NCBI GenBank assembly: GCA_002840735.1
Contig: PHBY01000010.1
Location: forward strand, 62,001 to 126,000
Direction: 5' to 3'
Source of the DNA: Chloroflexi bacterium HGW-Chloroflexi-2
Lineage (GTDB): Bacteria > Chloroflexota > Anaerolineae > Anaerolineales > Anaerolineaceae
Length of the DNA stretch: 64,000 nt
Part shown: positions 4,517 through 48,542 of the stretch, one piece after another
How the letters are laid out: each line of letters starts with the position of its first letter
How positions within the stretch are numbered: the stretch's first letter is position 1
Notes under the pieces: model-generated
Database searches by the model: none
What the model was told of the DNA's origin: nothing
What the model saw: the letters and a program-made list of their open reading frames with translations, nothing else
Translations under genes and position numbers: made by a program

Positions 4517-4660
4517 TCCATTGAAAGCAAGTTACCTGTTACATGCAGGTTGAATTTAAAAGTAAAAAAAGCTAAAATTAGGTAGCGGGAAAAATTTTTT
4601 CAGCTACTCATTTGATATTACATCAGTAGTCATACTTTATCCATATCCTGGAGGAATTTC

Positions 4661-5071
4661 ATGACAACAGTTAGGGATATTCTTGATCAGAAACAAAGCA
4701 GTCTTTGGAGCATTCATCCGAAAGCTTCCATCCTGGACGCATTAAAAATCATGTCACGCCGTGATGTTGGCGCATTGCCTGTCGTGGATGAAATGGGATT
4801 GGTGGGAATTGTTTCCGAGCGAGATTTTGTGCATGTGATTGCCAAATTGCAACAGTGTGAAATCGATCATAAAATCGATCGCTATATGAACAAAGATGTG
4901 GTTACCATTACATCAGACACCACCCTGGAAGAATGCATGTCCATCATGGCATCGAAAAAAGTACGCCATTTACCGGTGATGGACAAAAGGGAAATCATTG
5001 GGTTAATTTCCTATGGCGATGTCATTCGTGCTTTAGTTGCCAGAGCTGAAAATCAGGAGAATGTTTCTTAA
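4661..5071 (+). CDS. CBS-domain pair protein
   Basis: A 136-residue soluble protein made only of two CBS domains (about residues 8-65 and 78-134). The typical phrases are GALPVVDEMGLVGIVSERDF in the first and VRHLPVMDKREIIGLISYGD in the second. CBS pairs bind adenine nucleotides or SAM and act as regulatory modules, but the partner of this stand-alone version is unknown. A good Shine-Dalgarno (GGAGG, seven bases) precedes the ATG. Two paralogues lie in the window, at 7234-7668 (minus) and 57766-58209 (plus); the latter is the closer match, with the same N-terminus TVRDIL/TVKDIL. Confidence 0.93.
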   Translation: MTTVRDILDQKQSSLWSIHPKASILDALKIMSRRDVGALPVVDEMGLVGIVSERDFVHVIAKLQQCEIDHKIDRYMNKDVVTITSDTTLEECMSIMASKKVRHLPVMDKREIIGLISYGDVIRALVARAENQENVS

Positions 5072-5219
5072 AAGAATAACGCACACCATCTAATAATTAA
5101 GCCTTTGTTCAATCTTGGGTTATTTCTTTTCCATTCAATCAGATAAAAAATGTATGCATCTGATTGTATTCACCTGGCTTTAAATCCTAATCGCATTTTT
5201 TCTCCCTCAATTCTCAAAT

Positions 5220-5254
5220 CTCAATACTCAATACTCAATACTCAATACTCAATC
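5220..5254. repeat. Heptamer tandem repeat CTCAATA x5
   Basis: Four perfect copies of CTCAATA (5220-5247) and one imperfect copy (5248-5254), directly upstream of the triple operator. A simple tandem repeat; no function is implied. Confidence 0.9.
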
Positions 5255-5260
5255 CTGATA

Positions 5261-5332
5261 TAGAAAACAATTTCTAAAAAACACTTGCAATAGAATAAAT
5301 TTTCTGTTATTATAAATAGAACAATTATTCTA
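5261..5332 (+). promoter_or_regulatory. Promoter with three 16-bp operators TAGAA-N6-TTCTA
   Basis: Three copies of one dyad are visible: 5261-5276 and 5317-5332 match TAGAA-N6-TTCTA perfectly, and 5291-5306 matches except for the last base. A promoter fits among them: TTGCAA (5285-5290), 17 bases, TATTAT (5308-5313). Site 1 is upstream of the -35, site 2 fills the spacer and site 3 covers the start region. This layout is typical of repression by a dimeric helix-turn-helix protein. I do not recognise the regulator family from the dyad. Confidence 0.7.
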
Positions 5333-5345
5333 ACGCGAGGTTTTT

Positions 5346-5525
5346 ATGAACAAACAATCATCTTCTCCCCTGCCGACATTGATTCTAGGTGCTTTCTGGA
5401 TTATTTTGACGATTAATACCACCTTTAACTGGGATTCCAATGGCACCTTGATATTCTGGCTGGTATTCACAATTCTGGTTGGTTGGTTCGTGATTGCCAT
5501 TCAGAATCGGATGCGTCGCGCCTGA
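5346..5525 (+). CDS. Small two-helix membrane protein
   Basis: A 59-residue protein: MNKQSSSPLPTLIL at the start, then a membrane helix (about residues 11-24), a short polar loop TFNWDSNG, a second helix (about 34-52) and a basic tail QNRMRRA. ATG follows GAGG at five bases. The architecture resembles small 2TM-domain proteins encoded with PadR- or GntR-type repressors, but no regulator gene is adjacent. It is worth calling despite its size because of the strong operator-promoter immediately upstream, the ribosome binding site and the coherent membrane topology. Function unknown. The GNAT gene follows 130 bases downstream on the same strand. Confidence 0.75.
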   Translation: MNKQSSSPLPTLILGAFWIILTINTTFNWDSNGTLIFWLVFTILVGWFVIAIQNRMRRA

Positions 5526-18338: not shown

Positions 18339-19761
18339 ATTCGATATTTCCCTGCCTGATGATCATCCACGTGAGGAGTGCGGGGTATTAGGAATTTATG
18401 CACCCAATGAGGATGTCGCCCGCATGGCCTTCTTTGGATTGTTCGCTTTACAACACCGCGGTCAGGAAGCAGCTGGATTGGCAGTTTCAAACGGACAGAG
18501 TTTACGCCTGCATAAAGATGTAGGCCTCGTCTCCCAGGTTTTTACACCGAACGTGCTGGAAAAGATGGAAGGCGATTATGCCATTGGGCACACGCGTTAC
18601 TCCACCACCGGCTCACCCACGGCGCGTAATTCGCAACCCTTCATGATCGATACTCAATATGGTCCGTTGGCTTTAGCCCATAATGGCAATCTGGTGAATG
18701 CCGGGGAATTACGCGAACAATTGATGCAATCCGGAGTAGGGTTGACTTCCACCTCGGATACAGAGGTGATGATCATGATGCTGGCAGGCGCCAAAGGCGA
18801 TACCTGGTTTGAACGCATCAAAGACGCCATGCAGCATTGGTGTGGGGCATATTCACTGGTATTGCTGACCAAAGATCAGGTCTTTGCCGTCCGTGATCCC
18901 TGGGGGGTACGTCCACTGAGTATCGGAATGCTGCCCAACGGCGGACATGTAGCTGCATCCGAAAGCGGTGCCCTGTTGACATTGGGCTGTGTATCCATTC
19001 GGGAAGTCAAACCAGGGGAAATCGTCGCACTCAGCAACACAGCCCTGCAGGTAAACCAGGCACTACCTCCCGCCCAAAAAAGCGCTTTTTGTACCTTTGA
19101 GCATGTTTATTTCTCGCGTCCGGATGCCTACTGGGATGGGCGTAGTGTTCATTCTGTCCGTCATCGTCTCGGAGAAGAACTCGCCTATCAGGAACCCACC
19201 GAAGGCGATGTCGTCATTCCCATCCCGGATTCATCCATCTCGGCTGCCATAGGTTATGCCCAGGCTTCCGGTATTCCATACAATATCGGTTTTATCAAGA
19301 ATCGCTATATCGGGCGTACCTTTATCGAACCGACCGACTACCTGCGCAAACAGGGTGTAGCCTTGAAATACAACGTGGTCGAGGAAACCATCCGCGACAA
19401 GCGTGTCGTCATGGTCGATGATTCGATTGTGCGTGGCAACACCACCGGGCCTTTGATCCAACTGCTGCGGAATGCCGGAGCGAGCGAGGTTCACGTGCGT
19501 ATCTCCAGCCCTCCCATCCGGCATCCCTGCTTCCTGGGAGTCGATATGGGCACCTACGAGGAATTGATTGCCGCTCACAAAACAGTGGAAGAAATCTGCC
19601 AGCATGTCGGCGCCGATTCGCTGGTATACCTGACGCTGGAACGTATGATGAAGGCGATTGGCAGCCAAAATGGCTATTGCAATGCCTGCTTTACCGGCAA
19701 GTATCCCATTTCTGCGCAAAATGGTTTCAGTAAAACCGGGTTTGAAAACAACATCGGCTGA
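18331..19761 (+). CDS. purF: Amidophosphoribosyltransferase, Fe-S/propeptide type
   Basis: First committed enzyme of purine synthesis: PRPP plus glutamine gives phosphoribosylamine. The 476 residues start with a short leader MDRFDISLPDDHPREE followed by CGVLGIYAP, so the nucleophile Cys must be exposed by propeptide removal as in Bacillus PurF. The PRPP loop is RVVMVDDSIVRGNTTGPLI. Putative [4Fe-4S] ligands are present: FCTFEHVYFSRPD, HPCFLGVDMGTYEE and CNACFTGKYP near the C-terminus, matching the oxygen-sensitive Bacillus-type enzyme. The start is ATG 18331, four bases after AGGAG, overlapping the purE end by eight bases; the open frame begins 15 bases earlier without support. Confidence 0.96.
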   Translation: MDRFDISLPDDHPREECGVLGIYAPNEDVARMAFFGLFALQHRGQEAAGLAVSNGQSLRLHKDVGLVSQVFTPNVLEKMEGDYAIGHTRYSTTGSPTARNSQPFMIDTQYGPLALAHNGNLVNAGELREQLMQSGVGLTSTSDTEVMIMMLAGAKGDTWFERIKDAMQHWCGAYSLVLLTKDQVFAVRDPWGVRPLSIGMLPNGGHVAASESGALLTLGCVSIREVKPGEIVALSNTALQVNQALPPAQKSAFCTFEHVYFSRPDAYWDGRSVHSVRHRLGEELAYQEPTEGDVVIPIPDSSISAAIGYAQASGIPYNIGFIKNRYIGRTFIEPTDYLRKQGVALKYNVVEETIRDKRVVMVDDSIVRGNTTGPLIQLLRNAGASEVHVRISSPPIRHPCFLGVDMGTYEELIAAHKTVEEICQHVGADSLVYLTLERMMKAIGSQNGYCNACFTGKYPISAQNGFSKTGFENNIG

Positions 19762-24149: not shown

Positions 24150-24206
24150 TTCCGATCCGATCTGGTGTACTTGATTAACGAAGTTTTTGGGAGATTGAAT
24201 CTCTAC

Positions 24207-24234
24207 TTGACGGGCAGTTAAAAACACTTATAAT
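24207..24234 (+). promoter_or_regulatory. Sigma70-type promoter for the small helical protein
   Basis: TTGACG (24207-24212), 16 bases, TATAAT (24229-24234). One of the best consensus promoters in the window, 42 bases before the start codon at 24277. Confidence 0.7.
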
Positions 24235-24276
24235 GCAGTTAAGGGTTAGAAATGTTCGACCCTAATGGAGGTAGTT

Positions 24277-24489
24277 ATGGCTGAGAAAACAAGCGAAAGA
24301 CCGCAGAATCCGAATATAAAAGAAGCGCGTGAGCATATGCACGCTGCAAAAGAAAATATGGAAAAAGTAGCCGAATCTTTCTTGCCGGAAGGCATGCGTG
24401 AATATCACCGCGCAGCCAAAAAAGAAATCCTGCTGGGTTTACGCAGTCTGCTGGATGCAGCGATCGATCATACAGAAAAAACGAAATAA
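24277..24489 (+). CDS. Small charged helical protein, function unknown
   Basis: A 70-residue soluble protein beginning MAEKTSERPQNPNIKEAREH. It is rich in Lys, Glu and Ala, has no membrane segment, and the segment from about residue 14 to 66 should form long amphipathic helices (EHMHAAKENMEKVAESFLPE, then KKEILLGLRSLLDAAIDHTE). I do not recognise the family; DNA- or membrane-associated helical proteins have similar composition. The start is ATG 24277, five bases after GGAGG, which itself overlaps an upstream in-frame ATG at 24265 that is therefore unlikely. It has its own strong promoter and a terminator-like hairpin downstream, which suggests an abundantly made independent gene. Confidence 0.8.
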   Translation: MAEKTSERPQNPNIKEAREHMHAAKENMEKVAESFLPEGMREYHRAAKKEILLGLRSLLDAAIDHTEKTK

Positions 24490-24517
24490 AACCTTTTTAG
24501 ATTAAAAAATTGAAATG

Positions 24518-24550
24518 GCATGCTTTCCATTGTGATTGCATGCTCTTTTT
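24518..24550 (+). terminator. Terminator after the small helical protein gene
   Basis: GCATGC at 24518-24523 and again at 24538-24543 (self-complementary hexamers forming a stem), followed by TCTTTTTAT. Confidence 0.5.
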
Positions 24551-24650
24551 ATATAACTTATTTCGTGTCACTGGATCCGCAAGGGGCGAAGCAGGTGATG
24601 TGAGATACCATTTCCAAACTCGGATTATGTTATTGCCTGCTTCACCCCAT

Positions 24651-25093
24651 ACCCATAATTCTGCATAATGCCCGGAATGGGGATGAACCACCGAATTTCC
24701 ATCGATATGACTGGAATTTTTTTATCCTCTCATCACACAATGATTGAGTAATCTCCATCCGGATTTTGAATGGGGACGATGAAAGTGAAAAAACCACATC
24801 ATTAAGAACATTTCCGTGATGGTGGTTTTGATGGTTTTGGCGGTAGGGGTGATCATGTAGAACGAAACCTAGGGTGGAAAATGGTGTCAATTCTACATGA
24901 TCACCCCTACCCATAATTCTGCATAATACCCGGAATGGGGATGAACCACCGAATTTCCTTCGATATGACTGGAATTTTTTACCATCTCATTACACAATGA
25001 TTGAGTAATCTACATCCGGATTTTGAGAGGGGACGATGAAAGTGAATAAACCACATCATCAAAATAACATTTCCGTGATGGTGGTTTTGATGG
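24651..25093. repeat. Tandem ~185-bp imperfect direct repeat with embedded palindromes
   Basis: Two non-coding copies, 24651-24834 and 24909-25093, both running from ACCCATAATTCTGCATAAT to GTGGTTTTGATGG and differing at scattered positions. Each copy is followed by a GTAGGGG palindrome (24843-24910 and 25103-25130), so the unit of duplication is repeat plus palindrome. Within each copy the end can fold back (AAACCACATCA against TGATGGTGGTTT). Short open frames here are not credible as genes. Together with 25103-25184 this explains the 890-base gap between the small helical gene and the UbiB gene; 25185-25381 shows nothing recognisable. Confidence 0.85.
24843..24910. repeat. GTAGGGGTGATC inverted repeat (20-bp arms)
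   Basis: Left arm 24843-24862 begins GTAGGGGTGATCATGTAGAA; right arm 24891-24910 is its exact reverse complement, with a 28-base loop. It shares the GTAGGG...CCCTAC ends with the other palindromes in the window. Confidence 0.9.
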
Positions 25094-25102
25094 ATTGGGC
25101 TT

Positions 25103-25184
25103 GTAGGGGCGTTCGGCCGAACGCCCCTACATAACCGAACGCCCCTACATGACCGAACGCCCCTACATGACCGAACGCCCCTAC
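25103..25184. repeat. GTAGGGGCGTTCGGCC palindrome plus three tandem right arms
   Basis: A perfect 28-base palindrome at 25103-25130 (GTAGGGGCGTTCGG joined to its complement) followed by three 18-base units of the form ATRACCGAACGCCCCTAC at 25131-25148, 25149-25166 and 25167-25184, each repeating the right arm. The same palindrome occurs at 59939 and 60415. Confidence 0.93.
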
Positions 25185-25381
25185 CATGCTGCCGGATTTA
25201 TACCCGAATTGGCGAAGGGGAATTGTGTGTACCGTATTTTAAATCAGGATTTTCCGCGATGATTGTCTTTTGGTTATCCCCAAGTGTAAATTGAGTTGAT
25301 GGGTATTGAATGGAAAATTCGGGTGTACAAAACACTGGAACGAAAATGAAAACCTTTCTCCAATATTTCATCTCTTTCTAA

Positions 25382-27037: not shown

Positions 27038-27112
27038 AAAAATGATTATACCTCCCGATCAATCTTTGTAACTGTTTTCAGACCTCAATTCCGCAATAGT
27101 CGACGGAAAATT

Positions 27113-27250
27113 TTATTGTCCATCTTCTGACAACTCCCGATGGATGGATTCGAGTAATTCCTTGAATTGATCTGTTTTGACTGTTTCTTCTTCCAACATA
27201 AGTTTGAAGATTGTATTGATATACGACCTGGTTGGCAATTTGGGAGCCAT
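27113..27250 (-). CDS. Possible small ORF (45 residues)
   Basis: A frame starting MAPKLPTRSYINTIFKLMLE and ending SIHRELSEDGQ, with a charged amphipathic helix in its second half. The frame is open nine codons further upstream. No ribosome binding site precedes the ATG and I do not recognise the protein; it may be the tail of a decayed gene. Otherwise the 435-base gap 27038-27472 shows nothing recognisable. Confidence 0.25.
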   Translation of the reverse strand: MAPKLPTRSYINTIFKLMLEEETVKTDQFKELLESIHRELSEDGQ

Positions 27251-27472
27251 GATTTCGAATGGGATGAATTCTTCACTTCTAATTTAGAACATATTTTCAT
27301 AATTTACAAGGGTTTTTGCCTTCTTTTCTCCAAATCACCTATAATTAATGAGAGACCATCCCACCTTCAAAGCAGCATGTCTTTTTTGTAGTTTCCAACT
27401 TTAATTACTTTGTAAGTAATCCATTTATCATCCGCATTAACTGTTTCAGTTTAATTTTCCCGGGAGGTTTAC

Positions 27473-27778
27473 ATGAATTGGAAAAGCTTTTTTAGTTTTG
27501 AACGTATGGTCACACCGCTGATCATCAAAGTATTGTTCTGGATTGGCATGATCGCCAGCATCATCACGGGTCTCATTATTTTCTTCGGCGGGATCATCTC
27601 AGGTATCTCCAACAGTGAATTTGGGACCATCATCGGAGCGTTTTTTGGTGGTCCATTGGCTATGATTCTGGGTATTCTGGCTACCAGAATTTACTGCGAG
27701 TTACTGATCCTCTTCTTCCGCATCAACGAAACTCTGACGGATATTAAGAAAATCCTATTAGAGAAGAAAGTTGAATAG
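27473..27778 (+). CDS. DUF4282-type small membrane protein
   Basis: A 101-residue protein with the DUF4282 plan: FFSFERMVTPLIIKVLFWIG at the start (the F-x-RM-TP-IK phrase is characteristic), two membrane helices (about 16-40 and 50-72), an intervening Gly-rich loop GGIISGISNSEFGTIIG, and the conserved ending TRIYCELLILFFRINETLTD. The biochemical role of the family is unknown; it may be a scaffold or membrane-remodelling component. GGGAGGTTTAC directly precedes the ATG. It is followed by a nested palindrome and then the ECF sigma operon. Confidence 0.88.
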   Translation: MNWKSFFSFERMVTPLIIKVLFWIGMIASIITGLIIFFGGIISGISNSEFGTIIGAFFGGPLAMILGILATRIYCELLILFFRINETLTDIKKILLEKKVE

Positions 27779-27780
27779 GT

Positions 27781-27839
27781 GATAGTTTAAAGTCCATAGT
27801 TGACAGAAAAATAATGTCAACTGTTTGCTACTAACTATC
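27781..27839. repeat. Nested palindrome behind DUF4282 gene
   Basis: Outer arms GATAGTT (27781-27787) and AACTATC (27833-27839) enclose inner arms AGTTGACA (27798-27805) and TGTCAACT (27815-27822). It has no T-run, so it looks more like an interspersed palindrome than a terminator. Confidence 0.6.
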
Positions 27840-28033
27840 GTTTAATTTATAGGTAATCCAAAGATTTCCAAATTTCCAAGAATTGATGTGTGAAATCCTC
27901 CAAAGGAAGATGAAATTGGAGGAAAGTATTTAATTTTTGGGTACAATCAAATTGATCTGTCCCGATTTCCAATTTTTTACGACATAGATAGTAAAGACTG
28001 CAAAACCTCACAAACGGATCAATCGTAATCATC

Positions 28034-48038: not shown

Positions 48039-48542
48039 CTACATCTCCAGTGGCTGTTGATTAAGCTGCTGGCTGACTTTGACCGGAACAGATCCCATCA
48101 GTGCTTTCTCAGTAAAACACATCTCCCTTGAAATTCGCACCAAATCAGCGATCTTCTGAGGATCCTCATCCGAGTCGATCAGAATTTCAATTTCAAAGCC
48201 ATCACAGAAACCCTCTGCGTCACCTCTTAATACTGAACCCTGTTCATGGAAGTGAGCTGTGACATTAACCCGTTCATTGCGGATGGAGATTTTTCGTTTG
48301 GTCGCAACCTGCGACACATGCGAGATGAGTCAAAGCGCCATCCCTGAAACAAAATACGAGAGTGGAGTGGGTGCTGTCCCTTCCCCACCCGGAATATAAG
48401 AACCTTCATCGCTGATAAAGGCATACATGCGGCCGGTTTCGGGCTGACCAGCCAGCACCTGTTTGCGCCACTTTTCAATAGAGGAAGCTTCTGCACGCAC
48501 TTCAATGTCTCTGAACCCGGCTGGTGGTTTGTTTGTTGTCAT
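48039..48542 (-). CDS. OsmC/Ohr-family protein with in-frame UGA; candidate selenoprotein (Sec71)
   Basis: Thiol peroxidase-like family. The reading frame from ATG 48542 to TAG 48039 is continuous (167 residues) except for one TGA at 48330-48332, codon 71. Both halves look functional: residues 1-70 contain RMYAFISDEGSYIPGGEGTA and TPLSYFVSGMAL; residues 72-167 begin LISHVSQVATKRKISIRNER and carry REMCFTEKAL with the second family Cys. In OsmC proteins the peroxidatic Cys follows the phrase x-x-G-x-A-x, exactly where the UGA falls, and UGA is followed by C. A hairpin GTCGCA-GGT-TGCGAC begins 14 bases after the UGA, with the GGT loop 20 bases after it, within the range for bacterial SECIS elements. 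The alternative is a nonsense mutation. No sel genes lie in the window. Confidence 0.65.
48301..48315 (-). promoter_or_regulatory. SECIS-like stem-loop downstream of the OsmC UGA
   Basis: On the coding (minus) strand GTCGCA, loop GGT, TGCGAC: a perfect six-pair stem with G and U in the loop, loop starting 20 bases after the UGA codon. Bacterial SECIS elements have a small apical loop with G near the front, 16-37 bases from the UGA. The sequence is within coding and read in frame. Confidence 0.55.

Follow-up and report, generated by a model that had tools for sequence, protein, structure and literature searches.

The window, by which we mean the whole 64,000-nucleotide stretch of DNA analysed here, carries on its minus strand a gene that comprises 167 codons before its TAG stop (Table 1). 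The first-pass annotation had described one continuous frame broken only by a TGA at codon 71, with SYFVSGMAL upstream of the TGA and LISHVSQVATKRK downstream, the second cysteine of the family kept in REMCF and no decay elsewhere in the gene. All of this is borne out: REMCF contains Cys142, and the frame runs without any further lesion. The read-through protein matches the OsmC Pfam family (PF02566) at 51.1 bits (cut-off 27.5) and NCBIfam NF041052 at 130.1 bits (cut-off 95), the latter match spanning residues 13–161 of 167. A plain list of open reading frames ends the gene at codon 70, so that such genes are easily misannotated.

Table 1. Coordinates of the osmC-like gene and its features in the window.
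Feature	Coordinates	Strand	Remarks
OsmC-like gene, predicted selenoprotein	48039..48542	(-)	167 codons and a TAG stop; ATG at 48540-48542
UGA codon 71, putative peroxidatic residue, predicted to be read as selenocysteine	48330..48332	(-)	TGA/Cys exchange in relatives; Sec machinery
Predicted SECIS hairpin GTCGCA-GGT-TGCGAC	48301..48315	(-)	clade-wide loop position; covariation; constrained codon use
Codon of Cys113 (in GFCDGF), the third chalcogen residue conserved in the clade of the window gene	48204..48206	(-)	clade alignment
Cys142 codon (REMCF), putative resolving Cys	48117..48119	(-)	invariant in 40/40 aligned; matches a Cys of 3cje

The length of the interrupted osmC frame alone is not striking. 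Scanning the 64-kb window, we found 17 frames with a TGA outside the main open reading frames, and at least one of them (19146–19730) exceeds the osmC frame on both sides of its TGA (91 and 103 codons versus 87 and 96). A Pfam scan of 10 of the 16 other TGA-interrupted frames, including 19146–19730, gave no match. It is the comparison with relatives that lifts the osmC frame above chance.

What do the relatives carry at codon 71? We searched 151 genomes with NF041052, namely the source genome (4.1 Mb in 40 contigs, 99.87% complete) and 150 relatives. Matches over the cut-off occurred in 25 of the 151; exactly one TGA lies inside the match in 24 of these and none in the remaining genome (G012), and the TGA, whose position was read in all 24, falls at the same codon. 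Our counts rest on these over-cut-off matches, weaker ones at E 0.001 being present in 128 of the 151 genomes, and five below-cut-off loci among the 30 from this search (L039–L043; no stop inside the match) were left out. A second scan covered named genome contigs and yielded 34 loci, which by record title belong to Chloroflexi/Anaerolineae or subgroups (31), Syntrophomonadaceae (1) and Spirochaetes (2); Bellilinea caldifistulae strain GOMI-1 carries the gene with TGA. The combined set of 59 loci corresponds to 42 distinct proteins, 40 of which entered our alignment (A6; L015 and L017 were left out). Codon 71 is TGA in 32 of the 42, TGC or TGT in 10 and any other codon in none, so the alignment check suggested by the first-pass annotation returned Sec or Cys in 42/42 distinct relatives; the residue is also Cys in 3cje, the nearest solved structure. 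The proteins form two clades: 35 group with the window gene (26 Sec, 9 Cys) and 7 make up a sister clade (6 Sec, 1 Cys). When the site was masked for tree building, the resulting tree required at least five exchanges of Sec and Cys, three of them forced by supported branches; this tree has no outgroup root that would give the direction of change, and its Spirochaete rows are long branches. With that many changes, the site lends itself to asking why lineages retain or lose selenium. A small Anaerolineaceae-like Cys group (L052, L056 and L057) is placed among the Sec members without the hairpin described below, and the genomes of these three have no tRNA-Sec or SelA match over the cut-off.

The same TGA is found in independent assemblies, including that of B. 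caldifistulae strain GOMI-1, and sequencing error (TGA standing for TGC or TGT) is therefore excluded. The competing view of the first-pass annotation was a one-step nonsense mutation. It would have left either a pseudogene of recent date or a protein cut short at 70 residues. TGA is indeed one base from a Cys codon, and the lack of any other lesion in the frame is what a very recent event would leave. However, the same TGA is present in 32/42 distinct relatives across many genera, among them L064, from a metagenome bin recorded as Bacillota, and in the clade of the window gene a hairpin with its loop at a fixed position occurs only together with TGA (see below). We also computed dN/dS between the window gene and its closest relatives (L021, L022 and L023) and found 0.018–0.049 before the UGA and 0.016–0.032 after it, a ratio claimed for these three pairs only because dS is saturated for most of the more distant ones. 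These values point to purifying selection before as well as after the UGA. Given the conserved TGA and the selection downstream of it, we reject the pseudogene reading, and a nonsense mutation in either form appears extremely improbable.

Can the source genome insert selenocysteine? It contains a tRNA-Sec (69.9 bits; tRNA-SeC (tca) according to ARAGORN), and SelB (349.7 bits), SelA (546.4 bits) and SelD (346.7 bits) all score over their cut-offs; all four lie on the same contig (C7). The selA, selB, selC and selD genes that the first-pass annotation had proposed as a check are thus all found in the same genome. UGA is normally a stop here, because RF2 is over the cut-off in this genome and, among 37 long ORFs in the window that do not overlap, 10 end in TGA. 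An alternative in which UGA is reassigned or suppressed to give Trp, Gly or Cys rather than selenocysteine would leave the frame open too, since any read-through does so, but the use of UGA as a stop, the UCA anticodon of the tRNA-Sec and the fact that only Cys codons replace TGA at site 71 all speak against it, and we give it next to no credence. The selD gene of this genome (L012, C7:53947–54882) likewise contains a TGA in frame (NCAGU). This is followed by a SECIS-like hairpin, TCGCAA-GTT-TTGCGA, whose loop begins 34 nt from the UGA with a G, and the stem letters TCGCA/TGCGA are common to the selD and osmC hairpins.

We then compared the distribution of the machinery with that of the TGA. 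SelB is over the cut-off in 22 of 24 TGA genomes, against a background of 114 of 151 genomes in which it is simply common; it is below the cut-off in two TGA genomes (G015 and G089), taken as those of L047 and L063, which have tRNA-Sec. A by-locus sample comprised 21 genomes (20 of the 34 named loci, plus L016), 11 of Sec type and 10 of Cys type. A tRNA-Sec of at least 67 bits was found in 9/11 Sec-type versus 2/10 Cys-type genomes (Fisher p 0.009, uncorrected for kinship), and SelA was over the cut-off in 8/11 versus 3/10. The Sec-type genomes below the cut-off for tRNA-Sec are those of L073 and L065 and, for SelA, those of L066, L074 and L047; each of the 11 has at least one of the two, and 7 of the 10 Cys-type genomes have neither. 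The genomes of L071 and L072 keep both tRNA-Sec and SelA although Cys occupies the site. In G012 (Cys; 87% complete) SelA is present and SelB gave no match at E 1e-45; its tRNA-Sec profile match barely reaches the cut-off (47.1 bits against 47), and we interpret it as a tRNA-Ser, given that one such tRNA in the source genome reaches 47.5 bits.

The GTCGCA-GGT-TGCGAC hairpin following the TGA has a perfect stem of six pairs that begins 15 nt after the UGA. The first-pass annotation had the stem right and had placed the loop 20 bases after the UGA, where we count 21 nt; it had also correctly noted the C directly after the UGA. For bacterial SECIS loops the first-pass annotation gives a distance of 16–37 nt from the UGA. 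A small apical loop with a G is given for bacterial SECIS elements in the description of PMC1088965, and the osmC hairpin, which lies right after the UGA, has a GGU loop starting 21 nt from it. Taken by itself, as the first-pass annotation had presented it, the hairpin is not statistically striking (z = -1.65; 14 of 200 shuffles fold as well). We therefore do not use its folding significance as a main argument.

The comparison of relatives, on the other hand, revealed several features of the hairpin: (i) in the clade of the window gene, a hairpin with its loop starting 20–21 nt after the UGA is present in 26/26 TGA genes versus 0/9 Cys genes (Fisher p 1.4e-8, uncorrected for kinship); (ii) across 25 distinct rows, standard pairs fill 96.7% of the pair cells, with 8 cells changed on both sides, and none of 500 shuffles scored as high in pairing, changed cells or covariation; and (iii) codon use at the stem is constrained. 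Slid controls were 20.7–62.7% paired, and in the Cys genes pairing over the stem columns is down to 16.7% of cells. Two stem pairs have changed on both arms in a compensatory way, columns 18/32 (GC, UA or AU) and 19/31 (UA, UG or AU); the three central pairs are invariant and the loop-adjacent pair is broken in 5 of the 25 rows. Two of the five whole-structure measures were often matched by shuffles, namely both-side changed pairs (98/500) and further pair types (87/500). The 19/31 change, found in a Bellilinea-like group (L024, L026, L031 and L060), combines a Ser-to-Thr with a Thr-to-Ser replacement, and pairing thus survives two amino-acid changes.

The codons tell the same from the coding side. 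Codon +9 is GCG in 26/26 Sec genes, which use GCG for 74 of their 338 other Ala codons, and in 0/9 Cys genes, though seven of these have Ala there. Codon +6 is TCG or ACG in 26/26 Sec genes and 1/9 Cys genes; at other sites of the Sec genes these two make up 109 of 531 Ser/Thr codons. Since the Cys genes L052, L056 and L057 encode nearly the same residues (ITQVAN) with other codons, the hairpin is not a by-product of the protein sequence. The separation of the two types has its bounds: two Cys genes score another hairpin, weaker and farther downstream (loop at 32 nt in L069 and 28 nt in L076), and by folding energy of 42 nt the groups are not cleanly separated, L075 and L076 (both Cys) falling within the Sec range. 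Hairpins of the sister clade vary, with the loop at 17–21 nt in 5 of 6 Sec members and at 25 nt in L038, and because a hairpin with its loop at 20 nt turns up in the Cys member, L016, as well, the Sec/Cys contrast is limited to the clade of the window gene. A chance hairpin was nonetheless rejected, given the loop position tied to TGA in that clade, the covariation and the codon use.

The machinery, the Sec/Cys exchange, the co-occurrence and covariation of the hairpin and the purifying selection downstream together argue that the UGA is read as selenocysteine, as the first-pass annotation had proposed, and the gene almost certainly encodes an OsmC-like selenoprotein. SelB carrying Sec-tRNA(UCA) would bind the hairpin just downstream of codon 71, and the ribosome would insert selenocysteine instead of terminating, which would yield the 167-residue protein. 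The interest of the gene lies in the quality of the case rather than in a new kind of system: a coding-region bacterial SECIS can be argued here from comparison, in a clean case where the hairpin covaries and is missing from that position in Cys relatives.

What might the protein do? In a single AlphaFold model (pLDDT 83.9; residues 47–57 of low confidence), the best fold match is 3cje (Z 17.3, rmsd 1.9 Å over 134 residues), which is also the best sequence match (E 6.2e-21, 20% identity). S-adenosylmethionine synthetases also appear in the fold list (Z about 9); we took this likeness, at an rmsd of 3.3–5.1 Å, for a common arrangement. OsmC family proteins are dimers, and a dimer is assumed for the OsmC-type fold of the window protein. 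Cys113 is present in 26/26 Sec and 7/9 Cys members of the clade of the window gene and is replaced by Phe in the five aligned sister members. Leu61 stands at the position of the Ohr catalytic Glu in 40/40 aligned proteins, and the Ohr families score far below their cut-offs (23.3 bits versus 88.85 for TIGR03561; 32.2 versus 240 for NF052637). The window protein is therefore not an Ohr, which corrects the first-pass annotation where it had included Ohr in its reading of the family.

Fold and conservation suggest that the protein is likely an OsmC-type reductase that works through selenocysteine; Sec71 would be the nucleophile and Cys142 the resolving residue. By analogy with the family, Sec71 would attack an oxidised substrate, for example an organic hydroperoxide, Cys142 would resolve it as an Se–S bond, and some thiol would then reduce this bond. 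Alternatively, the selenoprotein might not be a hydroperoxidase and could act on another substrate or in thiol exchange, through a Sec71/Cys113/Cys142 relay. The invariant Leu61 and the presence of Cys113 in all Sec members of the clade fit this alternative, and the function of 3cje is given by its title alone (OsmC-like hydroperoxide resistance protein); against it, the Sec/Cys pair aligns with the two Cys of the OsmC/Ohr fold, and the neighbouring genes, none of them seen conserved outside the genus, point to no other substrate. We regard it as possible, if on the unlikely side. Somewhat less likely still would be that the clade forms a distinct selenoenzyme subfamily other than the published UxxT one, without the Ohr Glu, with a Sec71–Cys142 plus Cys113 relay and acting on something other than Ohr's organic hydroperoxides.

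To compare the neighbourhood of the gene, six of its neighbours in the window were searched by tblastn in 42 loci, each standing for a distinct protein; many of the loci reach 1.5–3 kb on each side, and linkage is covered to that distance. No neighbour is conserved beyond the genus among them, and hence none hints at a substrate of the reductase. For a functional tie with the heavy-metal P-type ATPase upstream we found no support, the ATPase lying beside the gene only in the window's own locus and in two close relatives, L044 and L067. An MFS gene is found beside the osmC gene in L027, L045, L046 and L067, and all loci with an ATPase or MFS neighbour are of the window's genus. In three loci of the sister clade within the same genus (L014, L015 and L017), a TGA frame with LGADPUIASNMA or LGAEPUIASNMA lies about 1 kb from the osmC gene; it is perhaps an antisense or chance frame. 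Elsewhere in the window, stretches of about 1 kb at 18339–19657, 24150–25381, 27038–28033 and 4517–5493 have no ORF of 150 aa (greedy set).

How does the gene relate to known families? By score the window protein is a member of NF041052, "OsmC-related (seleno)protein" (OsmC_like_Se), which has Sec or Cys at the catalytic position; the candidate selenoprotein of the first-pass annotation is thus supported, in a family already catalogued as a (seleno)protein. NF041052 matches over the cut-off fall into the two clades, and that of the window gene is the one with Cys113. The titles and abstract openings of the open-licence literature on OsmC and Anaerolineae selenoproteins gave no description of this Anaerolineaceae clade. 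An OsmC-like selenoprotein (COG1765/PF02566) with Sec first in its motif was reported from Sargasso Sea data in 2005, with a predicted bacterial SECIS (PMC1088965), and such proteins appear also in the GOS survey (PMC2398784) and in reviews of 2022 and 2026 (PMC9312934, PMC13188914). Tables in these sources give the motif as UxxT, whereas the clade of the window gene has UxxS in 25 of 26 Sec members and UxxT in one, a comparison by published motif only.

Among solved structures, 3cje (an OsmC-like protein of Jannaschia sp.) resembles the window protein and has Cys at the positions of both Sec71 and Cys142; it differs in using Cys instead of Sec and in having no Cys at position 113 in the alignment. 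Ohr proteins share the fold (Z about 9–12 for several Ohr entries) and the two-cysteine arrangement, but they have the catalytic Glu (in XfOhr, Glu51, ten residues before the peroxidatic Cys61; PMC5962072) where the window protein has Leu. XfOhr has a catalytic Arg as well (Arg19). OsmC-like selenoproteins are therefore a known kind, in print since 2005, and the window gene is a well-supported further member. What the sequences add is a well-supported Anaerolineaceae clade with a carrier among named strains (B. caldifistulae), repeated switching between Sec and Cys, and a conserved Cys113.
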